In this document: in pieces, positions 1-49,751 of the stretch
Layout of the letters: the number at the start of each line of letters is the position of its first letter
Numbering within the stretch: the stretch's first letter is position 1
From: a virus
Direction: 5' to 3' (one strand)
Virus record (IMG/VR): IMGVR_UViG_3300009182_005502
Span: 1-54,686 of that record
DNA: 54,686 bases
Program-made: the position numbers and the translations under genes
The notes under the pieces: generated by a model
Told to the model about the DNA's origin: nothing
The model's input: only the letters and a program-made list of their open reading frames with translations
Databases searched by the model: none

Positions 1-40
1 AAGACTTCGATGCAATGTCATTCATGTTAGTTGTACTCAT
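1..40 (-). CDS. N-terminal fragment of an unidentified gene running off the window
   Basis: An ATG at 40-38 opens a frame that stays open to the window edge and encodes 13 residues beginning MSTTNMNDIASKS. Its start overlaps the TGA of the upstream kinase gene in an ATGA arrangement, the same coupling used by the two genes before it. It is therefore probably the fourth gene of the DpdA operon. Too little is visible to name a function. Confidence 0.5.
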   Translation of the reverse strand, partial: MSTTNMNDIASKS

Positions 41-594
41 AATTCGTAAAAATCGTTGTTGTGTATTTCTACCTCTTTATCTTGTAAAGCTACAAAGAAT
101 TGTCTAGCACGTTCTTCAACAGAACCACTAAGCCTTACAACAGGTATTGCATATGATTTAATAATACAATCAAAAGATTGCACTACACTATCAAAAAAAT
201 CTTTATTAACTGTTCGTTGACCATCCTCTATAAGAGGTAATTCCGGTTCAACATAAAAAATAATATCATATCTATCAATCATTACCAAAAATAAATCTCT
301 AATAATATCTAATACTTTAATATCTTTTATTAAAGCCATTGAATAAGCATAACCGTCTAAAGCACAACGATCATAAATCGTATCACCTTTTTCGTTAAGA
401 CGTTGAAGATGCTTAGTCATAATTGCAAGTTGAGTTACTTCATCCCCGTCTTCGTTAATATCATACCCCGCTTTCTGCATACCTCTTGTTAAAGAAGTTT
501 TAAACTTAAAATCAGTAAGTACATTTATATCTTGTAAATACTTTACAAGAGTAGTCTTACCTTGACTATGAGCTCCTGAAATAGCTATTTTCAT
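37..594 (-). CDS. P-loop nucleotide/nucleoside kinase-like protein (AAA_28/NadR-kinase type)
   Basis: This 185-residue protein has an N-terminal Walker A loop (G7-T15, GAHSQGKTT) and a downstream YDRCALDG segment (residues 74-81), the DR-containing lid or base-binding region of NadR-type and deoxynucleoside-type kinases. It is a clear paralog of the protein at 32409-33038, with the same MKIA start, P-loop position, FDR/YDR motif and IIFY strand. Its ATG overlaps the TGA of the formyltransferase gene, so it is the third cistron of the DpdA operon. The substrate cannot be read from the sequence. Nicotinamide riboside, a deoxynucleoside or a modified-base nucleotide are all possible. The operon position favours a role linked to 7-deazaguanine metabolism, which is inference. 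Confidence 0.8.
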   Translation of the reverse strand: MKIAISGAHSQGKTTLVKYLQDINVLTDFKFKTSLTRGMQKAGYDINEDGDEVTQLAIMTKHLQRLNEKGDTIYDRCALDGYAYSMALIKDIKVLDIIRDLFLVMIDRYDIIFYVEPELPLIEDGQRTVNKDFFDSVVQSFDCIIKSYAIPVVRLSGSVEERARQFFVALQDKEVEIHNNDFYEL

Positions 595-1130
595 GTATTA
601 TATACTAAATGCTTTTTCAAAAAAGTAAACCATAAATCCGTAGCATCTTTATGTAATTTTTCTATAACTTCTGATTCTGTCATATCTTCTATAAGAACAG
701 TACTATACTCTTTAATTTCTCCTCCATCAAGCTCAGCTGTACAACGGTGTATTGTATTACCTGACCACTTTAAACGTTCTGCTGCAGCACGCTTCTGAGG
801 ATCTTTTCCTTTAAGGTGAGGGTGAAGAAGTAGGTTAGCAGGATGTAAATTATATATTTCGTACTTTTCACATACTTCTGCTGGTACAATTCTAAGCCAC
901 CCGTGAAGAGTTACAAAAGAATTAAACGGTATATTATGCAGATACTCTCCTAGTGTAGTTTGTTTATTTACTTCAAATATTCTTTCTCCAGCAGAACTAA
1001 GCAATAGTGGATTTACACCTTCTAACTCTTGTTTGTTCGTAACAATAAAATCAGGATACCTACCTAGTTTTTCAGATATATTATATATCTCTGTTCCTGA
1101 TTGACTAAAGAAAGCTACCCAGGGTCTCAT
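591..1130 (-). CDS. PurN-fold formyltransferase, candidate preQ1-DNA formyltransferase (DpdN-like)
   Basis: The 179-residue protein has the formyltransferase catalytic triad of PurN: Asn94 and His96 in NLHPANLL, and Asp135 in the ELDGGEI loop that follows GNTIHRCT. Family members transfer formyl from 10-formyltetrahydrofolate to an amine; in PurN the amine is GAR. I chose ATG at 1130, because the upstream TTG would extend it by only two residues and the ATG overlaps the DpdA stop (ATGA). No other purine-synthesis gene is adjacent. The partner is a DpdA-like transglycosylase, so the amine may be that of a 7-aminomethyl-7-deazaguanine base, as proposed for phage DpdN. True PurN, or a sugar N-formyltransferase serving the glycan genes, are the alternatives. 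Confidence 0.78.
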   Translation of the reverse strand: MRPWVAFFSQSGTEIYNISEKLGRYPDFIVTNKQELEGVNPLLLSSAGERIFEVNKQTTLGEYLHNIPFNSFVTLHGWLRIVPAEVCEKYEIYNLHPANLLLHPHLKGKDPQKRAAAERLKWSGNTIHRCTAELDGGEIKEYSTVLIEDMTESEVIEKLHKDATDLWFTFLKKHLVYNT

Positions 1131-1975
1131 TGGCAAAATTTCTTAAAGAGAGATGTATTATAAAAAGCTAATTCTAGCTGTTCGTAGTTAAGATTATGAT
1201 TAATAAATTCAACAAGTTTAACAGACCATTTTTCACTCAATCCATAAACAGGGTTGTATCTTTTACCGAGAATAGCACTTACAATAGGGTTTGACGTATC
1301 TATAGTACTAATAGAATTTTTAAATTGAGTATTATTATACAATTTAAATTCCCACGGAGTAGCACAACCTAGTAGATGATGTGGTTTTTTACTCATTAAA
1401 ACACCATCATTATAAAGACGGGTTAGTAAAGCTACTCTGCCCAGAGTATATCTTACCCAGTTATTAAATCCCATCCAATGTACCCATCTAGGTACAGGTT
1501 CAATTTCCTTTTCAAAAGTATCTATAGAATTCCATTCGTTAAGATAAAACGAATAATCAAATGAAATTGCTATTTTATCAACACGAGGAGCAATATAGTT
1601 ATAACAATCTACTATTTCTTCATACGTCTTGCCCTGTATAACACCTATCTTTTTTCCAGGAAGATTTGTATATTCATTTGTAAATTTTTTAAAGCTCTCA
1701 ATAGTGCCTTTAGAATCCTCTAAAACATCAGGTATAATATACTCTGTAGGACGTAGATCTTTAATCCAATGAGCGTACTCCTTTGAGTCATAAGCCTCTC
1801 CTAACTCAAAAATACTATTATCAAGAAGTACATGTCTGCCCATTTCGACAGACTCTTTATAAAAATTATAATAATCAGTATGAATTGGTAGAAGATGTAC
1901 TAAGCAATAATCGTAATCGTTATACCCTCTTGATGTAGTAAGAAGGCTAATAGGTGTTTCGTGACTAATAAGCAT
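1127..1975 (-). CDS. dpdA: tRNA-guanine-transglycosylase-like protein, probable DpdA (7-deazaguanine insertion into DNA)
   Basis: This 282-residue protein shows the landmarks of the TGT/DpdA barrel in order: LLDNSIFE (Asp52, counterpart of the DSGGFQ aspartate), IIPDVLED (80-87), GVIQG (111-115), HLLGCATPWE (200-209) and a later Asp226 in an IDTSNP context that may be the nucleophile. Family enzymes exchange guanine for a 7-deazaguanine base. DpdA does this in DNA, whereas Tgt acts on tRNA. I use ATG at 1975; an upstream frame extension has no ATG and runs through the promoter. It is the first gene of an operon with the formyltransferase and kinase. QueD and QueE elsewhere in the window supply the matching pathway. 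A tRNA substrate cannot be excluded. Confidence 0.75.
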   Translation of the reverse strand: MLISHETPISLLTTSRGYNDYDYCLVHLLPIHTDYYNFYKESVEMGRHVLLDNSIFELGEAYDSKEYAHWIKDLRPTEYIIPDVLEDSKGTIESFKKFTNEYTNLPGKKIGVIQGKTYEEIVDCYNYIAPRVDKIAISFDYSFYLNEWNSIDTFEKEIEPVPRWVHWMGFNNWVRYTLGRVALLTRLYNDGVLMSKKPHHLLGCATPWEFKLYNNTQFKNSISTIDTSNPIVSAILGKRYNPVYGLSEKWSVKLVEFINHNLNYEQLELAFYNTSLFKKFCQ

Positions 1976-1986: not shown

Positions 1987-2015
1987 ATAATAATGTCAAA
2001 TATAAGAAATGTCAA
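1987..2015 (-). promoter_or_regulatory. sigma70-type promoter of the dpdA operon
   Basis: TTGACA (2015-2010), 17-base spacer, TATTAT (1992-1987), then 11 bases to the dpdA ATG. The -35 hexamer is a perfect consensus. The predicted start of transcription leaves a leader of only a few bases. Confidence 0.6.
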
Positions 2016-2226
2016 GTATATTGTATATAAAAAAAGAATATACGTAGTAAAAGTAGGACCTGTTTATATCTGGAGTACAGCTGCTGCTATAAAAGAAAAC
2101 TGTGTTCACAAAGCTATTGAACATTTTAAAGTAAAATCTGAAAATTATTTAAAATATAAAGGCGCTGAAATTATAAGCTTATACGTTAAAGAAATAAAAA
2201 TTCAGGACAATTCAGGAAATACATAG
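1993..2226 (+). CDS. small protein of unknown function (doubtful)
   Basis: A 77-residue frame on the plus strand, flanked on both sides by minus-strand genes. The translation is basic and protein-like, rich in Lys, Tyr and Val (YKKRIYVVKVGPVYIW), with no repeats or low-complexity runs. It overlaps the end of the bilin reductase gene tail-to-tail by 25 bases. A CATAAATA element 12 bases before the ATG could be a late promoter. Against it, the dpdA promoter lies inside its first codons. I recognise no family. Confidence 0.4.
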   Translation: MSNIRNVKYIVYKKRIYVVKVGPVYIWSTAAAIKENCVHKAIEHFKVKSENYLKYKGAEIISLYVKEIKIQDNSGNT

Positions 2227-2852
2227 TTGTTTAAAAAATGCTTAGCATTTTCTTCTCCAACATCTACCGCTAAAGCTTTAAACGTTTTGTCGTTTTTCTT
2301 CTGACCTATACAATAACTATTCTGTTTTTCTATATTTGTTTTGTATCTTTCTTTAAAAGATTCTGAATATTTTAAAAACTCTTTTGTTATTGCTCTAGAA
2401 TTACACTGTAAAAAATCTATTTCTTCTTCTTGTGGAGATACACAAATAAAGTTTTCTCCAAAGAAATTTGCCCATTCAGGAAGTTTCCTTTCTGGGGACT
2501 TTATAGTATTTTTTAACTGAAGTAAGTTCTTTTGAAGAATCTGATTAGCATTAATAGGTGTAAGATCAAAAAAGAAACCTGTAATTTTATTACCGATTTC
2601 AATAAAGTCTAAACCTAATATAGGTATATCAATAGTAGCATTAGGAAAAATATTAGCGTGTACTACCCCTATTCTTTTAGTTTTATAATATTCTAAATGT
2701 ACATGTCTAAAAATAGGACTTGTATAGATATTATTTTGCCAAATTATATCAGTATTATACTGACCCTCGTAAAGAGTAGGACGATCTGGATATCCAAAAG
2801 CGTCTGTAAAATCTTGTGTTAAAAGATCAAAAAATTCTCTTAGCTTGTCCAT
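2202..2852 (-). CDS. pcyX: ferredoxin-dependent bilin reductase, phage PcyX-like
   Basis: Members of this family reduce biliverdin IXalpha with electrons from ferredoxin to phycobilins. This 216-residue protein carries the core signature: HLE (52-54), VVH-x-NIFP, PILGLDFIEIG and FFFDLTP. His65 and Asp82 sit 17 residues apart, like the catalytic His88/Asp105 pair of PcyA. PebS-type enzymes have Asn in place of that His. The protein is a little shorter than cyanobacterial PcyA. It overlaps the heme oxygenase gene by 13 bases and follows it in the same transcript, so heme to biliverdin to reduced bilin would be one cassette. The His/Asp pair plus non-cyanobacterial context fits the PcyX group known from ocean phages. 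The exact bilin product cannot be read from sequence. Confidence 0.82.
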   Translation of the reverse strand: MDKLREFFDLLTQDFTDAFGYPDRPTLYEGQYNTDIIWQNNIYTSPIFRHVHLEYYKTKRIGVVHANIFPNATIDIPILGLDFIEIGNKITGFFFDLTPINANQILQKNLLQLKNTIKSPERKLPEWANFFGENFICVSPQEEEIDFLQCNSRAITKEFLKYSESFKERYKTNIEKQNSYCIGQKKNDKTFKALAVDVGEENAKHFLNNYVFPELS

Positions 2853-3406
2853 ATCTCTTCAAACAAATCTATATGAAACTGAAAGAAAGCTTTTGTTTCA
2901 AAAACAATGTTATCATTTAAAGAATCGGGTGTATCTTTATCAAGAAGATATCTAACAGTAGTAATAACAGCCATAGGGTCCTTAGATTGATAAGTTTCAT
3001 TATAAGGGGCTTGAGACTTAGCGAGAATTCTACCTCCGTAGAAATCAGCTAACCACCTAAGATAAAAATCCGCCTTAAGAAGCTCTTCACTCTTTGTCCA
3101 AGAATTTGCAAGCCAGGCACGAGTTACCGTCTTAATCGTGCTCTTTGTATAGTTAGTATCAGCAATAAGCTTGTCAATATCTTTCTGTATAAAAGTACTT
3201 CTCTTTAAATCGTTATTTTCTAAAATTTCTTTTTGAAGAAGTCGTTGTTCAACTACCTGATAGACTGGTAGAAGATTAACAAGCAATTCTAGTAAATGTT
3301 CCTTCTTAAAGGAACCATCTACAAAGGATTGCATTAACGGATGTTGCTCAGAAGCTCTATGAAGTTCTGCCGTTTCTTCTTTTAAACGTGTCTGTAAATT
3401 ACTCAT
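2840..3406 (-). CDS. ho1: heme oxygenase
   Basis: This soluble helical protein of 188 residues opens like bacterial heme oxygenases, with LKEETAELHRASEQHPLMQSF. His16 is the expected proximal heme ligand. The distal-helix region is WLADFYGGRILAK (118-130), with the glycine pair that lets the helix kink over the heme. The enzyme would cleave heme to biliverdin, CO and iron using reduced ferredoxin. It is first in a two-gene operon with the bilin reductase, whose start lies inside its 3' end. Its own promoter stands directly in front (TTGATT-16-CATAAT). In phages such enzymes divert host heme; in a non-phototrophic host the use of the bilin is unknown. Confidence 0.88.
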   Translation of the reverse strand: MSNLQTRLKEETAELHRASEQHPLMQSFVDGSFKKEHLLELLVNLLPVYQVVEQRLLQKEILENNDLKRSTFIQKDIDKLIADTNYTKSTIKTVTRAWLANSWTKSEELLKADFYLRWLADFYGGRILAKSQAPYNETYQSKDPMAVITTVRYLLDKDTPDSLNDNIVFETKAFFQFHIDLFEEIWTS

Positions 3407-9089: not shown

Positions 9090-9950
9090 CTACCAATAGC
9101 AACCACCTTCAATATTTTTATATTTTTGTGGTGTTTCCTCAATAGAGGGACTAATCCAATGTTCATTATAAAAATGTTTACCTATATTTCCTTCACTCCA
9201 TCTTCCTCCTTTAACACCAAATAGAAGTTGTAGAGGTCCTCCAACGTGTATAGCTTTTTTACCGTTTTTTCTAGCATGGGCAACCAACGGTAAGGACGAG
9301 GCACCAGAACCAACAAGCATTATATCGTAGTCAATAGTATCCATCAACGATTTATAATGTCTAACCATATCTAACCAACTATTAAATTCGCTAGGTTTAT
9401 CGATACCTGGAGAATGAGGATGCTTAAGAGTATAGAGATTAAATGTTGGTAAAATTCTAGGATCTTTCCAAATAAGATGTCTTTTATCGTACTGTTTCTT
9501 TATTGATTCTGTAAACGGTGAAATAACTAAAACGTTTTTACCTTCAAGATATTCAGACCAAGGGGATCCTGAATAAAAGGGTTCAATACTTTGAAGATCA
9601 ATTAACTCACAATTTGGTGAATAACTTTTTATATAAGATGCTTCAAAAGACATATTAAACATAGACCACCAAGCAAGAGAGTCTATATGTTTAATACTAT
9701 CTGTAACTTCCTTAATAAAATCAATACGAGCTTGCTCTGTCTGGGGAAATACACCAGCGTTGTTATATATTTCATCAACAACATTAGGCATCCATTGAAC
9801 TGATTGATTATTTTGCTTATACATATAGTAATTGTATATACACATTAATTCGCAATTGCCTATTTTACCGCAACCAAAAGGTTCCTCTTTCTTAAATTTA
9901 TTATAAAGATAAAAAGAACTATCAACAAACTCTTTTTTTAAAAATTGCAT
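9090..9950 (-). CDS. putative GT-D-fold glycosyltransferase
   Basis: This 286-residue protein resembles the GT-D (DUF1792-like) transferases. An N-terminal GKIGNCEL sits where the family has RxGDGE. The C-terminal half has the glycine-rich strand MLVGSGASSLP followed by KKAIHVGGPLQLLFG, typical of the family's nucleotide-sugar fold. The DGE acid is replaced by NCE here, so activity is uncertain. It is the last gene of the large glycan block before gp46, one base downstream of a GT4 gene. I infer a role in surface or virion glycan assembly from the context only. Confidence 0.6.
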   Translation of the reverse strand: MQFLKKEFVDSSFYLYNKFKKEEPFGCGKIGNCELMCIYNYYMYKQNNQSVQWMPNVVDEIYNNAGVFPQTEQARIDFIKEVTDSIKHIDSLAWWSMFNMSFEASYIKSYSPNCELIDLQSIEPFYSGSPWSEYLEGKNVLVISPFTESIKKQYDKRHLIWKDPRILPTFNLYTLKHPHSPGIDKPSEFNSWLDMVRHYKSLMDTIDYDIMLVGSGASSLPLVAHARKNGKKAIHVGGPLQLLFGVKGGRWSEGNIGKHFYNEHWISPSIEETPQKYKNIEGGCYW

Positions 9951-9951
9951 T

Positions 9952-11037
9952 TTATAATTGAGAGAAAAGATTTAAAATATCCGACTTTACTTTTTCGTAA
10001 CTATAAAAATTATTATATTTCCAATTAGCTTTAGCTACATATTCTTTATAAAGATTTTTATCTGTTTCAAGTTGTTTCATCCTATTAGCGTAATCATTAA
10101 CATTATTTTCTACAAATCCACATCCTTCAACTTGTTCAACTTGTCCCATATTGCCTGCCTCATGCGTAATAACAGGTAAGTCATTCGATAGTGCTTCAAT
10201 AATAGCTAACGAACAAATCTCTCCATCACTTCTGGCGTGTGTATAGACATTTAAACTACTTAAAAAGTTATGTATATTTTCAGAGTTTGAATCATGCTCA
10301 ATAAATTTAATATTTTTTATATTAAGATGTCTTGCGTATTCTCTATGTTTTAAAGACCCTCCAAGCAATAAAAAGTAATTATTTTCGTTTTCAATTTGCT
10401 TATACGCCTCAAGCGATAAAGGTGAAAAAATACTTTCACTATTTCTTTGATGAAACCCGTATACAAATGTATCTTCAGATATACCAAGTTTTTTGCGAAC
10501 TGTAGAAGGTTTTTTAGGTGGTACTTCAACTACTACAGGTATAACAAGAAGTTTACTTGAATCACCTCCATTATTTACCCAAATATTAGCCTGCCAGCGA
10601 CTTATTAAGGCTTGTTTAAAAAAATTAGGTTGATCGAATGTATAAATACCGTTTTGTATATTAATTACTCTTGTCTTTTTAATAACATTAAACGGGTACT
10701 CTTCAACCCCTCTATTACCTATAACAATAGCATCATATTTACTTTCGTCAAATTTATCCCAAAGATCTGTATCTATCCAGGGTTGTTCATCTCTGCCCCC
10801 GATACGTCCTCCTACTTTAACTTCAATTGTATTAATACCGGCTTCTTGACAAATTTTAAGCATTAAAGGATCATTTTCGGCATGTCTATGACCGTCTGTA
10901 AAAGGGCAGTTGGTTGTGTAGTAATAATCAACATCGTACGAATTATTAACAAGAATTTTAGCTATGGACTGTAAATGTTTTTCAGTACCACCTGCTGCCA
11001 TACCACAAAATTTAATAAACGCAATTTTTTTCGACAT
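9952..11037 (-). CDS. GT4-family glycosyltransferase
   Basis: A 361-residue GT-B transferase. The N-terminal GGTEKHLQSIAKIL is the usual acceptor-domain opening of GT4. The C-terminal domain has the TFVYGFHQR strand, a KFIEHDSNS turn and the donor-binding EICSLAIIEALSNDLPVITH, with the paired acids E-x7-E expected for sugar-nucleotide contact. It lies one base after the FkbM methyltransferase gene and one base before the GT-D gene, so the three form one transcript from the promoter at 11.7 kb. Donor and acceptor are unknown. Confidence 0.85.
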   Translation of the reverse strand: MSKKIAFIKFCGMAAGGTEKHLQSIAKILVNNSYDVDYYYTTNCPFTDGHRHAENDPLMLKICQEAGINTIEVKVGGRIGGRDEQPWIDTDLWDKFDESKYDAIVIGNRGVEEYPFNVIKKTRVINIQNGIYTFDQPNFFKQALISRWQANIWVNNGGDSSKLLVIPVVVEVPPKKPSTVRKKLGISEDTFVYGFHQRNSESIFSPLSLEAYKQIENENNYFLLLGGSLKHREYARHLNIKNIKFIEHDSNSENIHNFLSSLNVYTHARSDGEICSLAIIEALSNDLPVITHEAGNMGQVEQVEGCGFVENNVNDYANRMKQLETDKNLYKEYVAKANWKYNNFYSYEKVKSDILNLFSQL

Positions 11038-11038
11038 A

Positions 11039-11674
11039 CTATAACGATATTAGCGCAGGTGAATAAAATGTTTTATGCGCAAATATTTGATATCTATTTG
11101 GTTCGTGCTCTGTTATTATATTTTTACATTGCTTATAACCGTGATCGTTAAGATAACTAAAGTCGTCTGTTTTAATAAGTGTGCTTTCATCATACGGATG
11201 TATTTCAAGTAATATAAGATTGAATTTTGTGTAATTAAAATCAATACCTAATAATACATGATGTTCGTATCCTTCTGTATCAAGTGTCAGGAAATCAACA
11301 TGTGTTAAATTATGCTTTCTTAAGAGTGTATCTAAAGGACAGCATGGTACCTGATAACTTCTATATTGTCTTAAATGTAGAGCTGTTACGCCTGACTCTA
11401 GTCCTGAATTAGCGTGACCAAAATCAATAGTGTTATGCGGATAAGTTTTTTCTACTAAGGCATAATTTTCAAGTATACTCTTAGGTCTAGTTGTTTTATA
11501 TATTTCGTTATAATCTGTTATAGGTTCAACTAATAGACCTGACCATCCACAGTTTTCTAAAAAAGAAGTATTATTTTGATCATAAGGGTTGCTTGCTCCT
11601 GCTTCTACAAAAATTCCATCATTTTTTTGATTAAAAATATTATAAACAATACGATCTATTCCATGCTGTGACAT
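11039..11674 (-). CDS. FkbM-family SAM-dependent methyltransferase
   Basis: This 211-residue protein has the class I methyltransferase pattern of the FkbM family: GIFVEAGASNPYDQNN for motif I, GLLVEPITDYN for the ribose-binding acid, and VDFLTLDTEGYEHHVLLGID, the family's diagnostic block. FkbM enzymes O-methylate sugars and other hydroxyls. The promoter immediately upstream makes it first in a three-gene unit with two glycosyltransferases. O-methylation of a glycan residue is the natural inference. Confidence 0.85.
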   Translation of the reverse strand: MSQHGIDRIVYNIFNQKNDGIFVEAGASNPYDQNNTSFLENCGWSGLLVEPITDYNEIYKTTRPKSILENYALVEKTYPHNTIDFGHANSGLESGVTALHLRQYRSYQVPCCPLDTLLRKHNLTHVDFLTLDTEGYEHHVLLGIDFNYTKFNLILLEIHPYDESTLIKTDDFSYLNDHGYKQCKNIITEHEPNRYQIFAHKTFYSPALISL

Positions 11675-11681
11675 AACGATA

Positions 11682-11709
11682 ATTATACTATGTATATGTA
11701 ATTGTGCAA
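11682..11709 (-). promoter_or_regulatory. sigma70-type promoter inside the glycan block
   Basis: TTGCAC (11709-11704), 16-base spacer, consensus TATAAT (11687-11682), then 7 bases to the ATG at 11674. It divides the 9-22 kb block into at least two transcription units and predicts a leaderless message. Confidence 0.6.
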
Positions 11710-11720
11710 TAAATTACATT

Positions 11721-12488
11721 TTAACCATAAGCTTCGCTAAATATTTCAACATTGTTTATAAGTGTATCTAATGTTTCATTGTTTAGCAAATTACATTCTA
11801 ATGTAACGTATTTATTATAGTTATATTTTTTAATTACAGAAGATATTTCTTTATTTTTTAATATATCTATACTCTTTAAGTACGGTGAACTAATATGTAT
11901 ATGTTCTATTAAACTTGCTCCGTTTTCAAAAATATGTTCCAAGCTCTCACTATTAAATATAGTCGTACTAATATCTAAAACTAATTTTAGATTTTCATGC
12001 TTAACATTATTAATAAAATTAATTGCTTCTGTTGTATTGGTAATAAAATTACAACCGTATTCTTTTGCATTAGCTTCTAAACAAACTATACAATCAAATG
12101 TTTTAGCCATATCTCCTATTTCTTTAAAAATTTCTATAGCTTTTTCAATTTTAAAATTATTAAAATCTTTAATAAATCTATTTTTTGGTGAACCGAAAAC
12201 TAAAGGTTTAATTTTTAATTTATTTGCTAATTTAAAAACTTCTTTAAGATGATTTAAGATTATTTGTTTTTCTATTTCTCCATCAAACAAAGAAACAGGC
12301 GGGCATGTATATAATAGAGATTGCATACCTACCATTTTTATATCAGCTTTATTATAATCGTTTTCTATCTCGTCGTTTATAAGAGACGGGGAAACATCAA
12401 CATTAGATATTTGATAACTTTTTAAGATATCGATAGCTTTTTTATTTTCAGATTGATTCCACCCTATATTAGATACGCTTAGATTCAT
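11721..12488 (-). CDS. TIM-barrel sugar isomerase/epimerase-like protein (xylose-isomerase/AP-endonuclease-2 fold)
   Basis: The 255-residue protein has the metal-ligand ladder of this superfamily: CLEANAKEYG (Glu), LKLVLDIST (Asp), IEHIHISSPYL (His) and a terminal YVTLEC (Glu). The family isomerises or epimerises sugars and polyols. It starts inside the 3' end of the reductase/epimerase gene, overlapping by 20 bases. Together with the following FAD enzyme the three form a tight cassette. The gene is even richer in A/T and in Asn, Lys and Ile codons than its neighbours, suggesting separate origin. The substrate is unknown; a nucleotide sugar or a free sugar precursor is inferred from context. 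Confidence 0.75.
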   Translation of the reverse strand: MNLSVSNIGWNQSENKKAIDILKSYQISNVDVSPSLINDEIENDYNKADIKMVGMQSLLYTCPPVSLFDGEIEKQIILNHLKEVFKLANKLKIKPLVFGSPKNRFIKDFNNFKIEKAIEIFKEIGDMAKTFDCIVCLEANAKEYGCNFITNTTEAINFINNVKHENLKLVLDISTTIFNSESLEHIFENGASLIEHIHISSPYLKSIDILKNKEISSVIKKYNYNKYVTLECNLLNNETLDTLINNVEIFSEAYG

Positions 12489-13230
12489 ATTCTTTTTTAA
12501 AATTTTTTAAATCCTCAATAATTTGTTTTTTATTATAAAAATATTTTTGTTTATTAGGGGCGTACTTAGAATGAAAATCGTTTTTAAAAAACGTATTATT
12601 GGGATCTAAATTAATATTAAAAACATCTTTATAAAAATCTCTAATTAGTAACGGTTCAGTAGCTAAGTTAACTAACTTATATTCTTTATCTATAAAGTTT
12701 AATAAATCAGCTCCTAAATTTTTTACATTGTAAATTTGTACAATAGCATTTCCATTTACTTTATGTACTTCATTATTATTCAATGCATCGAATATTATAT
12801 TCTTTTTAAGATCGTGACCGTACATAATAGGTAATCTTACTATTAAACAGGAAGGAAAAATATTTCTTATAGCTTTTTCTAAAAAAAATCTATTTTGACC
12901 ATAATGATTATTATTAATATCCTCTACAAATGTATCCTCATCTACGTCATACGGTTTTTGATAAACATCAATTGTTGAAAGTAATATAAACTTTTTTGCT
13001 TTAATTGTTTTTATATTTTCGATAAAAGATAGTATATTATTAAAATCCTCCTCGGGGTTTTTATTAACTAGCCATCTTGTTGATGAGTTACCCGCTGATA
13101 CAACTAAATCAAATTCTTTATTTTTTATTTCTAATATATTTTTAGAATTATAAAGAAAATTAAAATTAATCTGTTTTATAAGGTTTTGACCTATAAAACC
13201 GGTATAACCTATTAAAGCATTATTACTCAT
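12469..13230 (-). CDS. NAD(P)-dependent sugar epimerase/reductase (extended SDR)
   Basis: The 253-residue Rossmann protein has GYTGFIG (8-14) for the dinucleotide, FILLSTIDVYQ (80-90) with the catalytic Ser/Thr, and Tyr109 in HYGQNR. The usual YxxxK is YxxxR here (Arg113), an odd replacement that may alter or weaken catalysis. An RLPIMYG segment follows, as in dTDP-sugar reductases. It overlaps its upstream FAD gene by eight bases and its downstream isomerase gene by 20. It probably modifies the sugar made by the cassette, but the product cannot be named. Confidence 0.75.
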   Translation of the reverse strand: MSNNALIGYTGFIGQNLIKQINFNFLYNSKNILEIKNKEFDLVVSAGNSSTRWLVNKNPEEDFNNILSFIENIKTIKAKKFILLSTIDVYQKPYDVDEDTFVEDINNNHYGQNRFFLEKAIRNIFPSCLIVRLPIMYGHDLKKNIIFDALNNNEVHKVNGNAIVQIYNVKNLGADLLNFIDKEYKLVNLATEPLLIRDFYKDVFNINLDPNNTFFKNDFHSKYAPNKQKYFYNKKQIIEDLKNFKKEYESKRI

Positions 13231-14299
13231 CTTGTATTATTTTAGCAAACTCAGAGGCCATGAGTGGAGCTGATATTAATTTACCTTCTTTTATAGAATA
13301 AAAATCTATTTCGTAATCATGTTTTACAATTTTTGTTACTCTAGAATCTCCTTTTGCACTTAGGGGTATTGGTCTATTACCGTATAAAGAATATTTGTAT
13401 TTTAATTTGCTAAAGAAAGGATAATACTTTAAACCGTGTTTTAATATTTTTTTCCAATTACTTTTTAAAGCTGTACTCTGTCTATATAGTATACCTGTTT
13501 TTTTCTTAATAACAGAATTAACAACATCGTAAATAAGATAAAGATTTTTGTATCCGGAGTATGGTAATATACTAATAAACGGTCCATCCATTACTGTTAG
13601 TGCAGGTATTTTTGTAGTTGATTCAACAACTGCTATTTCTGTTTCTTCAAAATAATATCTTGTATATCCATCTTTAATACCAAACAGTTTAAGTACATTA
13701 TTACTATTAGTATATGTACAATTTATTATTAAATCTGTGTTTATTGTTATATCTTTGTCAAATGATTTTAAAATAATATTTTTATTAATTTTCTTAACTT
13801 TTTTAATTTTGAAATTTAAAACTATTTTTACTTTTAAATCTTTTAATTCTTTTTTAATTTTTTTTCTAAACTTAGGAACATTAATACAAGCCTCATTAAC
13901 TTTAAAAGAATCTTCTATATCAATTCTATTTAAAAAGTTTTGATCAGGCCAAGAGGTATTGCAACTAAGACCCTCTTTTAGCATTACTTTTTTAAATAAT
14001 TTAGAGTCTATTTTAGATTTTTTTTCTATTACATAATAAAAATCAGGAAATATAAGACAATCTTTATATTTTTTTATAAAAAAATCGTAACCGCTTTTAC
14101 ATTCATGAATTGTTTCTACCGATCTAGGGTAATGATAACCTAAATGTATTCTATTATGCGTGCAATTTGAAGTACCTAATAAAATATCTTTGTTTGTATC
14201 AACTATTACAACATTATTATTTTTCGCTAATTCTAATGCTAAAGTAACTCCGTGAATTCCTGCTCCAATAATTAAAATATTTTTTCTACTATAATTCAT
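13223..14299 (-). CDS. FAD-dependent oxidoreductase (D-amino-acid-oxidase superfamily)
   Basis: The 358-residue protein begins with a classical FAD-binding IIGAGIHG (10-17; GxGxxG at 12-17) and a VVIVDTN strand that ends in the ribose-binding acid. A second FAD segment is near 190 (DLIINCTYTNS). The C-terminal half is a basic substrate domain. Such enzymes oxidise amines, hydroxy acids or amino sugars. It is the first gene of the three-gene cassette and its ATG overlaps the TGA of the GT10-like gene. Lys-, Ile- and Asn-rich composition matches the two following genes. The substrate is unknown. Confidence 0.75.
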   Translation of the reverse strand: MNYSRKNILIIGAGIHGVTLALELAKNNNVVIVDTNKDILLGTSNCTHNRIHLGYHYPRSVETIHECKSGYDFFIKKYKDCLIFPDFYYVIEKKSKIDSKLFKKVMLKEGLSCNTSWPDQNFLNRIDIEDSFKVNEACINVPKFRKKIKKELKDLKVKIVLNFKIKKVKKINKNIILKSFDKDITINTDLIINCTYTNSNNVLKLFGIKDGYTRYYFEETEIAVVESTTKIPALTVMDGPFISILPYSGYKNLYLIYDVVNSVIKKKTGILYRQSTALKSNWKKILKHGLKYYPFFSKLKYKYSLYGNRPIPLSAKGDSRVTKIVKHDYEIDFYSIKEGKLISAPLMASEFAKIIQDE

Positions 14300-15147
14300 A
14301 GTATATTCTTAACCATAAATTCAATTAAGGGAGCTATAGTAGGTTCATTACCTTCAAACAAATAACTGGATGTTATAGATTTATATGCAACATCATCATT
14401 ATCCAATTCAATTATCCTCTCAACAAACTTGTCTACGCTTTTAAAGTTATAAAGATTTAAAAACGCATTCTTGTTGTAATCCTTTTCGCAATTATTATCA
14501 GCCCAGTAGAGAGGTAAACATCCGGCAGCTTTAGCATGAGGCATTCGATCTGTATAATAACCAGGAGCAATAGTGTTTTCAAAGCAAATATTAAATTTGT
14601 AATTTGATATTAAGTTTATTTTAACATCTTCACCATAAAACCAATTATTAAATGGCTTACCAAAGCAGTGTACTTGTTTATATTTACCTAATTTTGCAAC
14701 AATTTCATACCTGTGAGGAGAATCAGTATTAAAAACAATAGCACAAAATTCGTTTTTCGGTTTGTGCATTAAAGGGTTATCTTTTATATCTTGAAAAGGT
14801 ATAACATATTGCGGATTTCCGTAATTTACCTTATTAAACCAATCTATTTGTAACATCCAAAGAGGTAGGCGAAAATTCTTACCGTTGTAATCTTCAAAAT
14901 CAAACGTGAGAGAGTAATCACATTCGTTAAAATTTGGTCTATGATTTTCACCTGTATAAAATACTTTTTTTGTTTTAGTGCGATTTGCACGATGATGATC
15001 ATGACCAAAACATGAATATATTAATAAATCTGTCTCATCGTTAAGAGGTGTTATTTCAACATCAGGTCTAATAGATTTAATTAAATCCCTAAAAAAATTA
15101 TTTTCGTGTTGAAACCCTCCCCAAAAATCACAAAATGACAGTTTCAT
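14296..15147 (-). CDS. GT10-like (fucosyltransferase-type) glycosyltransferase
   Basis: The 283-residue protein carries the GT10 hallmark near 183-215: YKFNICFENTIAPGYYTDRM followed by AAGCLPLYW. An earlier VFYTGEN segment matches the family's acceptor side. GT10 enzymes transfer fucose, or a related 6-deoxy sugar, from the GDP-sugar. I start at ATG 15147, five bases after the methyltransferase stop, rather than at the upstream extension inside that gene. A second GT10-like gene lies at 44710-45642; they share the ENT...P-IY core but are otherwise divergent. Confidence 0.82.
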   Translation of the reverse strand: MKLSFCDFWGGFQHENNFFRDLIKSIRPDVEITPLNDETDLLIYSCFGHDHHRANRTKTKKVFYTGENHRPNFNECDYSLTFDFEDYNGKNFRLPLWMLQIDWFNKVNYGNPQYVIPFQDIKDNPLMHKPKNEFCAIVFNTDSPHRYEIVAKLGKYKQVHCFGKPFNNWFYGEDVKINLISNYKFNICFENTIAPGYYTDRMPHAKAAGCLPLYWADNNCEKDYNKNAFLNLYNFKSVDKFVERIIELDNDDVAYKSITSSYLFEGNEPTIAPLIEFMVKNIL

Positions 15148-15151
15148 AAAT

Positions 15152-15763
15152 TTATTTCTTACAAGCAGCGATATAAGTACCGCACCACCACTCATTCCTA
15201 TTACCTGCACTTGTTAAATATTCAGAATACTCAATTTTTATTTTCTTATCACTTAAGGCCATTTGTGTAGCACTCTGTATTTTTTTCTCATCGTAATCAT
15301 CAACAACTAATATAAATTCATCTGCTAGAGATTCATAAAAGTAAATTATAGAATCGTAGTGTTGTTCCCAGAGATGACCTCCGTCATACAAGTATAAATT
15401 AATATCAGTGATATTATTAGCTTTTAAATCTATAGTAAAAGAGTCTTGATTAATAAAATTAGGTTCTTCTTTTATAATATTTCTAAAATTATTATAAAAT
15501 TCAGTTGTACAATTACCATGACAGCTCCAATCGTCTACTGTAACATAAAATTCAGGTTTATTACCGTAAATAGCCGAAATAACCGTTGAACCTTTCCATG
15601 TACCTATATCTAAATAACGTGTTTTACTATCTACTAAATTATTTAGTAAATGTCTAAATTTTGTTGATGACATACCTTCAACACTTAGTATTTCCGGAGG
15701 TAATTTTGATTTGTGTTGTTTAGCTAAATCAATAGCATTTATTATTTTTGTAATGTTATTCAT
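15152..15763 (-). CDS. class I SAM-dependent methyltransferase
   Basis: The 203-residue protein has motif I as RYLDIGTWKGSTVISA, a later LYLYDGGHLWEQHYDSI block and a VVDDYD strand, as in Methyltransf_24-type enzymes acting on sugars and small molecules. It sits between GT25 and GT10-like genes in the same direction with gaps of five bases, so it is part of the glycan operon. The acceptor is unknown. Confidence 0.75.
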   Translation of the reverse strand: MNNITKIINAIDLAKQHKSKLPPEILSVEGMSSTKFRHLLNNLVDSKTRYLDIGTWKGSTVISAIYGNKPEFYVTVDDWSCHGNCTTEFYNNFRNIIKEEPNFINQDSFTIDLKANNITDINLYLYDGGHLWEQHYDSIIYFYESLADEFILVVDDYDEKKIQSATQMALSDKKIKIEYSEYLTSAGNRNEWWCGTYIAACKK

Positions 15764-15768
15764 AATTT

Positions 15769-16389
15769 TTATCTTATACTTGTTGGAAATTTAAAATAAG
15801 GTGTTTCACCGATAGATCCTTGATGCAAACCAGGCTCTAACCAACATGTCTTAAGGTTATGCTCTGTAATAATATCATTAAGTTTGTGATCGTAACCCCT
15901 ATAAGGTCCTTTATGTAAACTATCTAAAACAATATTAATACTTTTTGCTGTATACATTATAGCGTGTGCACATCGTGTTCTAAACCTTGGTTCATAATAA
16001 ACGTTTGAACCGTTTAATACGGTAGGTCGTTCGTTAAACGCTGTACCTATCATTAATAAATCTCCATTAAGATTTTTAAATTGTGAAAAAAATGTATTAA
16101 AATATTCTTTAAAAGAATTGCAAAGGATTATATCATCTTCAAAAATAATACAATATTCACTATTAGTAGATTGTGCTCTTTTAAGTGCTTGTTCAAATTT
16201 TAAGCAAAGAGAGTACTCTCTTACTGTAATTGTATCACTATCAGGTTTTTGAATTTCTTCAGGAGGAAAGTCTTCCACAAATTCATAATATAAATCTTGT
16301 TTTTTAAATTGTTCTTCTAAAAAAATCTTACGATCAACATTTGGTTTATGATGAACAATATAAATAGGTATTTTATTTTGTATTAACAT
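15769..16389 (-). CDS. GT25-family glycosyltransferase
   Basis: This 206-residue protein matches the LPS GT25 family: an opening IPIYIVHHKPNVDRK, the EYSLCLKFEQAL helix, the metal-binding IIFEDDI (EDD at 84-86), and the C-terminal GYDHKLNDI and EPGLHQGS. These enzymes add galactose or similar sugars to lipooligosaccharide or protein. It overlaps the preceding gene by 17 bases. The acceptor is unknown; a virion protein or host glycan are both possible. Confidence 0.85.
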   Translation of the reverse strand: MLIQNKIPIYIVHHKPNVDRKIFLEEQFKKQDLYYEFVEDFPPEEIQKPDSDTITVREYSLCLKFEQALKRAQSTNSEYCIIFEDDIILCNSFKEYFNTFFSQFKNLNGDLLMIGTAFNERPTVLNGSNVYYEPRFRTRCAHAIMYTAKSINIVLDSLHKGPYRGYDHKLNDIITEHNLKTCWLEPGLHQGSIGETPYFKFPTSIR

Positions 16390-17194
16390 AATCCAGCCAT
16401 TCTTTAAAGCGCCAGCCTGTACCCTTAGAGGTATCTCCTCCTACAAAGTGTCTTGCTATAACTTTATCTTTTGTCGTTCTAATAATATCGTACGTATCGG
16501 GTACTCCGTTGTTACCTGTTTCTTCAACAAGATGAGTTACATTCCATTCAACTGGTAATATTTCGGTATTATCCATAATTTCGTCTAACTCAAAGATAGT
16601 ATTTTCCTTTCTTGTATGGAACCCGTAATTTGGTAAATCAAAATATGGGACCCAGCTATGAGCGGGTAAACCTACACAATGATAATAGGCATCCTGATCG
16701 TGATCATAAAGAGGGTGATACCCGTTAAAGTTTTCTTTCCAAACAGGGAAGCTTCTAAGTTTCTCATATCTTTCCTTTGAAAGAATTGCGTTAATTAGCT
16801 TCTTTGTATAATCGTTAATCTTTAACGAAAATAAACCTGTATTGTGAGAATTGCCTGAATCAATTGCGTAGGTAAAACTCTTATTTGTAATAAGAGGTTG
16901 ATCTAGCTTAGCAATAAAAACGTCGCAATCAGTATACGTAACTATATCCCCGTCTTTAAGTTTACCTGCCTTAATACCTTCATTAATAAGCCACCAACGG
17001 GAGAACCTCTTATCGTTACTAAGATCGTGCGGTATAACAATAGGTTGAGGAACTGAAGAGGTCTTAGGTGTTACTTCGATAAATTTAAAATCGTGAAGCT
17101 TACAATATTCTCGAATTCTGGGTGCATTATATGTTTCATAGAGATACTGTCTGTTATCAGGGTACTCTGCTAGTGTAATAAAATATTTGTTCAT
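16373..17194 (-). CDS. GT-A-type glycosyltransferase (GT34-like)
   Basis: The 273-residue protein has VTYTDCDVFI, a DxD-type metal site, then HNTGLFSLKI and DHDQDAYYH, the order seen in galactosyl/mannosyl transferases of the GT34 type. N-terminal and C-terminal regions carry no signal peptide or membrane helix, so it should act in the host cytoplasm. The ATG overlaps the end of the exostosin-like gene by four bases. Confidence 0.7.
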   Translation of the reverse strand: MNKYFITLAEYPDNRQYLYETYNAPRIREYCKLHDFKFIEVTPKTSSVPQPIVIPHDLSNDKRFSRWWLINEGIKAGKLKDGDIVTYTDCDVFIAKLDQPLITNKSFTYAIDSGNSHNTGLFSLKINDYTKKLINAILSKERYEKLRSFPVWKENFNGYHPLYDHDQDAYYHCVGLPAHSWVPYFDLPNYGFHTRKENTIFELDEIMDNTEILPVEWNVTHLVEETGNNGVPDTYDIIRTTKDKVIARHFVGGDTSKGTGWRFKEWLDYVNTK

Positions 17195-17979
17195 AATGTT
17201 TGTTTAATAAGATCTCTATAAAAGCCAAATTCTGATTTAGATTTGTTTTTTTGCTGAAGATCACTATATTTACTCAACATATCAATATTATACAAGTCTT
17301 CCCATTTATCAATAAACAAAATTGGACAATCTTTAAAAAAAATCATCGGTACACTTTTTAAAACAATAGGTACTGTACCCACGTAAATTGATTCCCATAT
17401 TCGATGACAATCTATACTATTACCGGGCGGGGAAACAACAAAATTAAATGTTGCTAATGTTTCAAGATAATTTCGATAATTCTTCTTATCTTTTTCAACA
17501 TAGAGACCTTTAACATCCTTTAAGATATTATTAACACCTTGTCTTTGATTGAGATTTGTTCCTTGATCGAAATTAGAATATATTAGCCCTGTTTTTTTAT
17601 TTTCATTATTAGCTATATCAAGTACAGCTTGCTTATTACCGTGAGGCCAGCATTCATTAGCAATACCAATTGGTATTGTTTGTAGCTTGTCATGTATAAT
17701 GTGACAATTCATTCCAAACCAGCGTTTTAGAAAACGATTATTTAATATCGGTGTACATGATTCATTAATAGGTGCATCAGCATCATGTGTTATTAACACA
17801 AAATCGTAATTTATATGTGGTAAATAACGGTGTTGAAATTCTTGTATATAATCTGTCTTAACAAAAAATATATTTTTTTCAGGAGTAATTTGAATACCGG
17901 AATTACGTCTTTCACTCATACAATTATGAGCTAAGGATATAAATTTGTCTGGAGTAATAATATCGTCAACAATTAACAT
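17191..17979 (-). CDS. exostosin-like glycosyltransferase
   Basis: The 262-residue protein has the exostosin-type C-terminal block: FNFVVSPPGNSIDCHRIWES followed by GTVPIVLKSVPMIFFKDCPILFI. The first part binds the nucleotide sugar. A paralogous but divergent protein is at 47503-48369. No membrane segment is visible, unlike eukaryotic exostosins. It overlaps both neighbours by a few bases within the glycan operon. Confidence 0.75.
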   Translation of the reverse strand: MLIVDDIITPDKFISLAHNCMSERRNSGIQITPEKNIFFVKTDYIQEFQHRYLPHINYDFVLITHDADAPINESCTPILNNRFLKRWFGMNCHIIHDKLQTIPIGIANECWPHGNKQAVLDIANNENKKTGLIYSNFDQGTNLNQRQGVNNILKDVKGLYVEKDKKNYRNYLETLATFNFVVSPPGNSIDCHRIWESIYVGTVPIVLKSVPMIFFKDCPILFIDKWEDLYNIDMLSKYSDLQQKNKSKSEFGFYRDLIKQTL

Positions 17980-18886
17980 TATCTAAGAAAGGTATGATAG
18001 CTTTTTTGTTATGCATATGCAAATTAAAGATGGGTATTTGAGTGTTAGTTGCATTAACAATAACATACGGTTTTTTATTTACAAGAGTAGGAGTAATTTG
18101 TTTATTAATAATTTGCTCTCCTACAAAATGTCTCTGCTCAAAGTAACCTGCAGGATGACCTTGATTGGTACCAAAAAAATACATACCGTAAGGATTAGGA
18201 TCTATAACTGTCTGTAACTTATCAAAATTTTCTGAATACGTACCACTAGGTACGCACGGTAGCATTTTAAAATTTTTCTTATTACGGTAAATAATATCTA
18301 AGAAAGCCATATCTGTTATCCAGTTTGCAAAATGACCTGTATACGAGCGAAGTTCAGCTTCTCCTTTTAAAAAAAGTTTTTTATGTAAATTAAAAAGTGT
18401 TAAAGCTGCTTGTTTGTCTTTTATAAACATAAAGCAAGGAGCACAAGCATTTGGAGCTTCATTACTATACCCAAACTCTACATCATTAAATATAGAATCT
18501 AATTTTGAGACTGGTTCAAATAAAATATTATCAGCTTCGACATGTAACACATTTTTTAAATCATTTTTAATAACACAAATTAATAATAAAATAACTCTTA
18601 TTGTTGTATTAAACCAGAACGGGTCGTTCATATAACGGCTCCATTTTTTATTTAAAATATCAATAATTTCTTTATACTCTTCAGTATCTTTAATTGTATC
18701 TACATTAATACAGGTATCATCAAAACAGTATTTACTTTGAGTAATAAAAAAAGAATTATCTGTTAATTTTTTATTATGCTTATATGTAGCTACGTAGTAA
18801 TCCGGTAAATTAGTATACGTATAAGGATTAACAGCTGCTTCCCTATAAAAATTATTATCTAAAAAAACGTATAAAAGATTATTCAT
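17966..18886 (-). CDS. putative GT-A glycosyltransferase
   Basis: The 306-residue protein has NVLHVEADNILF, a metal-site-like ExD at the end of a hydrophobic strand, then ACAPCFMFIK and ITDMAFLDIIY, typical of GT-A transferases without a close named family. It overlaps the next gene by 14 bases and the previous one by 8. Its context in the cluster is the main support. Substrate unknown. Confidence 0.6.
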   Translation of the reverse strand: MNNLLYVFLDNNFYREAAVNPYTYTNLPDYYVATYKHNKKLTDNSFFITQSKYCFDDTCINVDTIKDTEEYKEIIDILNKKWSRYMNDPFWFNTTIRVILLLICVIKNDLKNVLHVEADNILFEPVSKLDSIFNDVEFGYSNEAPNACAPCFMFIKDKQAALTLFNLHKKLFLKGEAELRSYTGHFANWITDMAFLDIIYRNKKNFKMLPCVPSGTYSENFDKLQTVIDPNPYGMYFFGTNQGHPAGYFEQRHFVGEQIINKQITPTLVNKKPYVIVNATNTQIPIFNLHMHNKKAIIPFLDNVNC

Positions 18887-19682
18887 ATTTACTAACTACA
18901 AACTCCTTTAACCCTTTTTTCTTATCAAACTGATGTATTATTACAAACGGGTTGCTTGTGTACGGGTTATATATAATATTATCTTTTACCCATAAAGAGA
19001 GATCTTGTATTTCATCTTCCTGAGAAAGATGCACAATAAAATCATTACCGTGTGGTAGTAATTTAAAATCTAATTCTTTTGTAATATAAGTAAAGTGATT
19101 TAAGATTACTTGATCATAGGCAAAATAATTCTGACGAGCTAAAACAATTGCTAATTCTTTTGCAACCTTTTTTTGATATTCAATAAGGCTTTCAATAGGG
19201 CCAATAGTTACTCCACAATTAAGAATCTTTTTATCCTTTACCTGATTAAAAGTAGAAGCGTAACCCTGATTATACCAAATACTGTTTGTTTGACAATCTC
19301 TATAGTAATGTCTTTCTTCTCCTAGAACTAATTCATTCTCTGTATAATTTTTTTTGTATACAATAAAAGGATCGTCTTGAAAAATTACATCAACATCGGT
19401 TAATAATGTTTTAGTATATTTTTTATCTTTATTAAGCTCTTTTAAATACAAATAAAAGAGAATAGGTTTAAGATTATAAGGTGTAAGGCTTGCAACATTA
19501 TACTTTTTTGCTAACTCACTAAAATTAACAATATGTAATTTATTAGAAGTAATAGGTATCTGCTCAGATGTAAGATCTGTTATTAAAAATAAATCTGCAT
19601 CAACCTTATCTATAAAACTCTTTAAATATGGCTTAAGATAGGTATATGGAAAATTAAGTGATAGGGCAATTGCAGCGTTCAT
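18879..19682 (-). CDS. putative GT-A glycosyltransferase (nucleotide-diphospho-sugar transferase-like)
   Basis: The 267-residue protein contains KTLLTDVDVIFQDDPF, a clear DxD site in the position used by nucleotide-diphospho-sugar transferases, followed by NCGVTIG and the AYDQVILNHF helix that matches the DQ..N motif of that family. It is coupled to both neighbours by short overlaps (4 and 8 bases). Substrate unknown. Confidence 0.7.
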   Translation of the reverse strand: MNAAIALSLNFPYTYLKPYLKSFIDKVDADLFLITDLTSEQIPITSNKLHIVNFSELAKKYNVASLTPYNLKPILFYLYLKELNKDKKYTKTLLTDVDVIFQDDPFIVYKKNYTENELVLGEERHYYRDCQTNSIWYNQGYASTFNQVKDKKILNCGVTIGPIESLIEYQKKVAKELAIVLARQNYFAYDQVILNHFTYITKELDFKLLPHGNDFIVHLSQEDEIQDLSLWVKDNIIYNPYTSNPFVIIHQFDKKKGLKEFVVSKYE

Positions 19683-20482
19683 AGTTTAAAATACTGTTTT
19701 TCGTACTCATCTTCATTAGGTAAAGGCATGTACCATAATATATTATTATGTGTTGGTCTTTTTAGCAATATATTTTGTACATAAGGAAACCATCTTTGAG
19801 GTAAATTATCAGAATCTTCAATAAAATTTTTTTCATTATATGTATTACCAGGCTCTCCTTCCATTGACGTACTTTCATGATCTAAGTGAAAAATAACACC
19901 TGGAGGTTTATTAAGGGTTAAACATTTACCATATAAGTGACATTTTGCATAAAAATATGTATCCCAATAAGCTCTACTTAAAAGCATAGGCTTAAATTTA
20001 TCACTATTAAGTAGCCACCAGTTGTTTTTAATTGCAAAACCATCGAATCCGTGAACACTTAATGACTCAGGCACCGGATTTTTATCGTCAAGGGAATCAA
20101 GTTTAGTAAAATGTAATTTACTTGCTACTAAACTATCATATTTGTTGTTACTTAATATTGACTTAATATATCTATCGGATACGATAATATCGTTATTAAT
20201 AAATAAAAAATAATCTGTTTTTACAACTGCTAAAATATCAAATATTTCATTTACGAACGGTATTTTTTTATCGGTAATATCTTTTGGTATATTTTTAAGA
20301 CTGTGTAAATTAACAAATTTGTCTAAAGTAGCAAAAGTTTCATCTTCAAACGTTACATTAACAAGAAGTATATTATCAGAATAATGTTTTTTTAGTTTGT
20401 GTAGACTTTCAACACACATTTTCTCCCGATTATTAAGATCGGATTCTTTTTTAAAATTGTTAATACCTATCGCAATTTTCAC
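19679..20482 (-). CDS. GT2-like glycosyltransferase
   Basis: The 267-residue GT-A protein has an MKIAIGINNF opening strand and FLFINNDIIVSD, where NND replaces the common DxD. A GFDGFAIKN-type acceptor loop and the conserved HLDHEST close to the C-terminus follow. It is coupled to the tandem GT2 pair by a four-base overlap. Acceptor unknown. Confidence 0.7.
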   Translation of the reverse strand: MKIAIGINNFKKESDLNNREKMCVESLHKLKKHYSDNILLVNVTFEDETFATLDKFVNLHSLKNIPKDITDKKIPFVNEIFDILAVVKTDYFLFINNDIIVSDRYIKSILSNNKYDSLVASKLHFTKLDSLDDKNPVPESLSVHGFDGFAIKNNWWLLNSDKFKPMLLSRAYWDTYFYAKCHLYGKCLTLNKPPGVIFHLDHESTSMEGEPGNTYNEKNFIEDSDNLPQRWFPYVQNILLKRPTHNNILWYMPLPNEDEYEKQYFKL

Positions 20483-21258
20483 GGCTTTCTTAATTTTAAC
20501 ACTTTAAGTACAGTATCTCTACTAACATCCGGTATTTCATTTACCATTAACCCGTGCTTATTAACAAATAGTTTCCACTGTTCTTGTATTCTCTGCTCTC
20601 TGGATCCATCAGGTCTATCGGTCTGTAGGCGACTAACAGCATTAGGATTATTACATATTAACTCGTCGGAATTGGTGATATCAGCAAACCACCAAAAAGG
20701 TGCAGCGTAGTTAGAACAAGATTCTCTATACGCTAGATCAATATCAAAAGGATCTCTAAATTGAGTATCGTATAAACCAGTTTGTTTAAAAGCAGTATAA
20801 TGATGATATGTAAACTCGTTACACATATTTTTATAAAACGACACACTTATATTCTTACTATATTCAACAGTAAGTCGAGGGGTTCTACTACCAGGGGTTC
20901 CTGATTCCCAAGAAGTGCTAACATAGGAAAAATATTTTAAACCAGATGCTTTAGATGCTTGTATATATTTGTCAAATATATTTACATCTTTAATAATCAT
21001 ATCATCTTCAATAAGAAAAATATGTTCACACCCTCTATTCATTAAAAAGTTAACAGCATCATTTCTACAAAATGCAGGGTAGTAATTTTTACTGTGTTGA
21101 ATCCAGTTACACGGTTCGTAGGGATGTTTATATCTATCACCTCCATTTACTACAACAACATCATTAACCTTATCAAAAGGTAGCGACTCATAAAGACTAT
21201 TAAAATAGTTTTCTGAATTATAGGTAATGATTCCAACTCCGATTTTATTTGTTTCCAT
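20479..21258 (-). CDS. GT2-family glycosyltransferase, tandem copy B
   Basis: The 259-residue protein opens KIGVGIITYNSENY and has HIFLIEDDMIIKD for the metal site, then LTVEYSKNISVSFYKNM and PFWWFADI. The same landmarks in the same order occur in the next gene (EYIFLLEDDIIIKD, VEYSKDIAVCFYPNV, PFRWFADI), so the two are a tandem duplication. I start at ATG 21258, 14 bases inside the upstream gene; a longer frame would overlap it by 89. Confidence 0.8.
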   Translation of the reverse strand: METNKIGVGIITYNSENYFNSLYESLPFDKVNDVVVVNGGDRYKHPYEPCNWIQHSKNYYPAFCRNDAVNFLMNRGCEHIFLIEDDMIIKDVNIFDKYIQASKASGLKYFSYVSTSWESGTPGSRTPRLTVEYSKNISVSFYKNMCNEFTYHHYTAFKQTGLYDTQFRDPFDIDLAYRESCSNYAAPFWWFADITNSDELICNNPNAVSRLQTDRPDGSREQRIQEQWKLFVNKHGLMVNEIPDVSRDTVLKVLKLRKP

Positions 21259-45642: not shown

Positions 45643-45644
45643 AA

Positions 45645-48369: not shown

Positions 48370-48370
48370 G

Positions 48371-49644: not shown

Positions 49645-49674
49645 ATTGTGTTTAAATAGTTGCTACTGTAAAAG

Positions 49675-49746
49675 TGGAACCGGTGGGACTCGAACCCACA
49701 ACCAATAGATTAAAAGTCTACTGCTCTACCATTGAGCTACGATTCC
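49675..49746 (-). tRNA. tRNA-Lys (anticodon UUU)
   Basis: A 72-base cloverleaf with seven-pair acceptor stem (GGAATCG/CGGTTCC, one T-G), loop CTTTTAA giving anticodon TTT, T-loop GTTCGAGT and discriminator A. CCA is not encoded. Confidence 0.95.
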
Positions 49747-49751
49747 TCTTC

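Follow-up and report, generated by a model that had tools for sequence, protein, structure and literature searches.

The first 2 kb of the window, by which is meant the whole 54,686-base IMG/VR virus record of an uncultured phage (31% G+C), carry three minus-strand genes in the order DpdA-formyltransferase-kinase (Table 1). This operon probably represents the insertion-and-decoration arm of a DpdA3/DpdN-type 7-deazaguanine DNA modification, and the product predicted from the sequences is formylamino-methyl-7-deazaguanine (fdPreQ1). In the proposed pathway, QueD, QueE and QueC (QueC being encoded outside the fragment) would make preQ0, with the first step performed by FolE of either the phage or the host, and QueF would reduce preQ0 to preQ1. 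DpdA would replace guanine residues of the DNA with the 7-deazaguanine through a Tgt-type double displacement, with Asp226 as the putative nucleophile and Asp52 as the putative acid/base. DpdN would formylate the aminomethyl group from 10-formyl-THF, before or after insertion, and the kinase would support the pathway as a (deoxy)nucleos(t)ide kinase. Hutinet et al. (2019; PMC6884629) left open whether QueF acts on the free base or once the base is in DNA. From the genes, homology, conserved residues and linkage that are observed, predictions are made here of the substrate and product, of the sequence in which the steps occur and of how much guanine is replaced.

A formylated dPreQ1 is predicted because Flavobacterium phage vB_FspM_immuto_2-6A (MW353175; hereafter immuto) has the same block of DpdA, DpdN, kinase and QueF, homologous and in the same order. 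In immuto, QueD, QueE, a phosphoribosyltransferase and FolE are encoded just upstream of the block, and homologs of the first three are also present in the window. However, the two blocks share only 38-48% identity, and their surroundings differ. In the immuto block a further small ORF separates DpdA from the formyltransferase and, unlike in the window, no heme oxygenase or bilin reductase adjoins; the DNA polymerase is of family A in immuto and of family B in the window; and queD, queE and folE adjoin the block in immuto, whereas queD and queE of the window lie 29 kb away. The Campylobacter CP220 group resembles the window in its DpdA (42% identical) and in the adjoining kinase, but the formyltransferase and QueF are not beside DpdA, and the reported base, dADG, differs from the one predicted for the window (PMC6884629).

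Operon layout, expression signals and precursor genes

The initial annotation described three genes coupled by two ATGA overlaps, with queD and queE elsewhere in the window. The open reading frames and both overlaps are present as claimed, and both precursor genes are borne out by family and homolog matches. The operon goes beyond chance, as its gene order is shared by immuto and, after dereplication, by dozens of IMG/VR contigs. Genes for a bilin reductase, a heme oxygenase and a family-B DNA polymerase lie upstream of it. A nucleotide similarity search with the window gave nothing useful among named phages.

Table 1. Features of the operon, its surroundings and the putative precursor genes (window coordinates)
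Feature	Position	Strand	Basis
dpdA, DpdA3-like DNA guanine transglycosylase, 282 aa	1127-1975	-	homologs, fold, conserved residues
dpdN-like formyltransferase, 179 aa from ATG	591-1130	-	immuto homology, clade, PurN score
AAA_28 / thymidylate-kinase-like P-loop kinase, 185 aa	37-594	-	Pfam AAA_28, fold, linkage
ATGA overlap, dpdA stop/formyltransferase start	1127-1130	-	sequence
ATGA overlap, formyltransferase stop/kinase start	591-594	-	sequence
Contig end, 36 bases past kinase stop; queF expected beyond (inferred)	1-36		relatives
Promoter-like TTGACA-17-TATTAT upstream of dpdA	1987-2015	-	11/12 matches
queD	30998-31465	+	PTPS 3.9e-17; immuto QueD 3e-34
queE, divergent radical SAM 7-carboxy-7-deazaguanine synthase	31649-32407	+	best NCBIfam hits are QueE models, 4e-11
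Second AAA_28 kinase, directly after queE	32409-33038	+	Pfam AAA_28 4.5e-12
GMP reductase	39369-40310	-	PRK05458 387.8 bits, cut-off 344
Xanthine/guanine phosphoribosyltransferase-like protein	51151-51651	-	PRK09177 87 bits, below cut-off 138

The promoter that the initial annotation placed before dpdA does exist as a sequence, but the early expression deduced from it is not supported, as such sites occur in the region at close to chance frequency (42 versus 33.7 +/- 6.8 in shuffled sequences). Shine-Dalgarno-like motifs precede only 4 of the 69 window genes, which is below the chance level at random positions (8.6%). Genes without Shine-Dalgarno signals are typical of Bacteroidota phages, and their occurrence here suggests a Bacteroidota-type host with other promoters, in line with immuto. 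For such a host a sigma-70 promoter is uninformative, and the site was rejected as evidence on both its near-chance frequency and the missing Shine-Dalgarno signal. A TAnnTTTG box lies 29 nt before dpdA, but among 22 leader genes the box precedes just 3. The regions upstream of the window genes are A-rich.

Several other features of the window are set down here as observations in their own right. The bilin reductase is of the ferredoxin-dependent type, with PcyA as its best PDB match and PcyX also matching. It forms a pair with the heme oxygenase (2202-3406 for the two, minus strand), flanked by the DNA polymerase and dpdA, and this pair occupies the equivalent place in three relatives (L007, L008 and L009). 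As the genes lack Shine-Dalgarno signals, the host is probably not a cyanobacterium, and the pair would then form a bilin cassette carried by a phage of some other bacterium. Two long minus-strand gene runs (9090-21333 and 41437-49627) include glycosyltransferases, an alpha-1,3-fucosyltransferase and an HtrL_YibB protein. Seven tRNA genes (Lys, Asp, Arg, Leu, Met, Asn and Ile) are clustered at 49674-51101 on the minus strand, and a 512-aa protein (29107-30645, plus strand) has a nucleotidyltransferase (NMN adenylyltransferase-like) domain within its C-terminal part.

Searches with immuto and Bacillus phage proteins found no folE, queC or queF in the 54,686-base fragment. In relatives, the kinase is followed by QueF at a distance of up to 60 nt in 70 of the 72 pairs in which the two are neighbours, the closest relatives (L005-L009) included, so queF is expected just past the contig end, which the initial annotation did not point out. 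QueC occurs in 10 of 18 large relative contigs, among them the 218-kb G008, which shows synteny over a large part of the window (identity 60% for DpdA, 70% for the formyltransferase, 73% for the kinase, 85% for the polymerase and 72% for GMP reductase). G008 also has QueF (L088), and no FolE was found in it at the sensitivity used. Since QueF (beside the kinase) and QueC (in G008) are thus found in relatives, the phage can probably make preQ1 with the help of at most the host FolE.

Two further genes may touch on the pathway. GMP reductase lies between the formyltransferase and the kinase in 11 related loci, a placement that suggests a link between GMP-to-IMP conversion and the fate of the released guanine. 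It was rejected as a pathway-specific gene because it is also found in many other phages, so the link is only a possible one. The phosphoribosyltransferase-like protein, which has a homolog near folE in immuto, could salvage the guanine set free by DpdA.

Related loci and the partner kinase

Two scans of IMG/VR yielded 149 loci. At least 581 DpdA relatives were confirmed, drawn from the first 599 candidate stretches, and 232 DpdN relatives. An unbiased, dereplicated set of 29 loci was retrieved through DpdA alone, each reaching 4.5 kb or more downstream; of these, 28 have the kinase, 26 have QueF and 16 have the formyltransferase. The kinase is also found in all 57 loci of the DpdA tree, on which the formyltransferase label changes about four times; one locus labelled as formyltransferase-minus (L029) does carry the gene, hidden by overlap. 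Wherever QueF can be tested, no locus has a formyltransferase without it, as expected if the preQ1 amine is the acceptor. At L031, L035 and CP220, neither formyltransferase nor QueF is seen at the locus, and the kinase is kept. The DpdA-kinase pairs of L031 and L035, with neither gene in the fetched stretches, are nested among DpdN-bearing relatives; these two are predicted to carry a different final base. The greater constancy of the kinase, compared with the formyltransferase or QueF, is new here, as is the intermittent occurrence of the formyltransferase, always in company with QueF where that could be judged. The pattern fits a core of DpdA and kinase to which QueF, and then formylation, were added as modules. 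Among bacterial genomes, DpdA3 was found in four MAG contigs, three of them with the kinase and none with a host link; these contigs are probably phage sequence.

The third operon gene, annotated from the start as a P-loop kinase, is confirmed by its match to Pfam AAA_28, and is an almost invariant partner of DpdA3, a point that the initial annotation overlooked. Its solved relatives are deoxynucleoside kinases, NadR, thymidylate kinases and deoxyguanosine kinase, and its model (pLDDT 92) matches the folds of dTMP kinase, deoxynucleoside kinase and NadR. Identity to the immuto counterpart is 38%, and close relatives (E < 1e-9) among named phages are confined to Campylobacter and immuto phages. 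A distant branch of the family is held by Streptomyces phages; in one of these, Wofford (L160), the relative (9978-10598) lies inside a replication gene cluster, and neither DpdA3 nor QueC was found in that phage. Insertion into finished DNA does not account for the role of the kinase. Most simply, it would support the pathway by feeding or recycling nucleotides where many guanines are exchanged.

The chance is appreciable, if somewhat below even, that the protein is an ordinary phage nucleotide kinase, kept by shared ancestry and without any special role in modification. This reading, which bears on the kinase alone, does not conflict with the DpdA3/DpdN explanation of the operon. The family does occur in phages that lack DpdA3, and most DpdA3 genomes have a second AAA_28 kinase elsewhere (10 of 14 large DpdA3 contigs), which in the window follows queE and in G008 occupies the equivalent place (71% identity). 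Against this reading, the kinase stays near DpdA3 in every one of the 57 loci, across a diverse tree, while DpdN, QueF, GMP reductase and gene order vary.

It is considerably less probable, and on balance unlikely, that the exchange takes place in the nucleotide pool, where DpdA3 would swap the guanine of dGMP or deoxyguanosine, the kinase would lift the product towards the triphosphate and the polymerase would incorporate it. Such a route would explain complete replacement as well as a kinase that folds like dNMP and deoxynucleoside kinases and persists, in the counts given above, even where DpdN or QueF is missing, as in CP220 with its DpdA-kinase pair and no formyltransferase. In Weizmannia phage Youna2 and Bacillus phage BSTP12, a P-loop protein overlaps the DpdA start and DNA polymerase comes just after DpdA; the kinase profile weakly matches this protein in Youna2, but not in BSTP12. 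In phage 9g, which has DpdA1 and only partial replacement (up to 27%; PMC6884629), no kinase of the partner family was found, and Hutinet et al. (2019; PMC6884629) record the proposal of a modified dGTP for Campylobacter phages. On the other hand, plasmid DNA in E. coli is clearly modified by DpdA1 (PMC6884629), and the kinase family is also present in Wofford, with neither DpdA3 nor QueC. The net charge of DpdA3, tried as a sign of DNA binding, is uninformative and does not discriminate between the routes, as DpdA1 of 9g is just as acidic. When phages replace a base at the nucleotide level (dZ phages, T4 hmC phages), they usually destroy the normal dNTP. The enzyme expected for this is largely missing from the large relatives, some of whose contigs are incomplete: of the two families searched for, HD hydrolases were found in 0 of 14 and MazG in 2 of 14.

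The formyltransferase and the transglycosylase

The formyltransferase matches Pfam Formyl_trans_N and is 48% identical to the immuto protein. Its start is the ATG at 1130; the alternative TTG at 1136 is unlikely, because the ATG yields MRPWVAFFSQ, as compared with MSRPWVAFFSQ in immuto. The Asn94/His96/Asp135 triad read from the sequence at the outset is confirmed and is invariant in 35 diverse relatives. A maximum-likelihood tree was built from these relatives, E. coli PurN, PurU and Fmt, and five PurN proteins from phage records. In it, all 35 DpdN-type sequences lie on one side of a branch with 100/100 support and a long stem, and the window and immuto proteins fall within this clade, apart from all PurN in the tree. 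The N-terminal motif also differs: PurN has SGNG[ST]N, which binds the substrate phosphate, whereas the DpdN group has SQ[ST]G[ST]E, and the window protein carries SQSGTE at the site of PurN SGNGSN. Against the PurN model TIGR00639 it scores 35.8 bits, far below the cut-off of 150.1. The best reading of these sequences is a DpdN-type enzyme, with formylation of preQ1 or dPreQ1 predicted, although the acceptor could be another amine.

There is little to recommend the view that the protein acts as a PurN and raises purine synthesis in the host, like that of cyanophages, in which case the base would be plain dPreQ1. The Formyl_trans_N fold and the Asn/His/Asp triad are indeed shared with PurN of bacteria and cyanophages, the solved structures best related to the protein are PurN, and cyanophages do carry purN. 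However, PurN identity was rejected on the low score and the separate clade, and it accords neither with the replaced motif nor with the fixed place of the gene, which has DpdA on one side and the kinase or GMP reductase on the other.

DpdA itself matches no Pfam or NCBIfam model, Tgt family models included, so that the label "TGT/DpdA-like" given to it rests on homologs and fold. A tblastn search of 50,697 phage records recovered the immuto DpdA (43% identity by tblastn, 47% when aligned over the full length), the Campylobacter CP220 group (39-41%; 42% over the full length for CP220) and, more distantly, Bacillus, Weizmannia and Chryseobacterium phages. The CP220 and immuto proteins presumably define the published DpdA3 subfamily, which would make the window protein a DpdA3; the names DpdN and DpdA3 reportedly come from a 2023 paper by Cui and colleagues. 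Compared with the PDB, a profile of 39 relatives matched one chain, weakly (7ui4, E 0.16), that of the DNA preQ0 insertase/DNA-guanine transglycosylase DpdA. The same chain is the sole significant fold match of the AlphaFold model (pLDDT 95; E 2.1e-4, probability 1.00, TM 0.47 by query length), and Tgt is absent from the best 50 matches. Asp52, His200 and Asp226 are invariant across the 39 sequences. All three have counterparts in DpdA1 of Enterobacteria phage 9g (dG+), which performs the same type of reaction but is missed by the DpdA3 profile: His200 and Asp226 align with His196 and Asp215, and Asp52 pairs with Asp72 by the motif LDNS/LDSG. His196 of 9g has been named as a residue conserved in DpdA (Hutinet et al., 2019; PMC6884629).

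The transglycosylase is thus a DpdA and no tRNA Tgt. That it might raise queuosine in host tRNA is scarcely credible, for although the motifs IQG, LxGxxxP and DxxxP are common to it and Tgt and the genome encodes QueD and QueE, the fold match to DpdA and the CxCxxC zinc motif, not found in the alignment with E. coli Tgt, led to rejection of that identity, and the protein is also shorter (282 versus 375 aa). The original reading of the pair as a DpdA with a DpdN-type formyltransferase therefore withstood both computational comparisons, with PurN and with Tgt.

Meaning for phages with DpdA3

The DpdA3/DpdN set, annotated in one cultured Flavobacterium phage group, is widespread in uncultured large phages. 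Its constant kinase offers a handle on how DpdA3 phages reach high guanine replacement, and likewise on the question of whether guanine is exchanged in DNA or in the nucleotide pool. If the latter were true, it would overturn the view that all insertion of 7-deazaguanine by phages is post-replicative.
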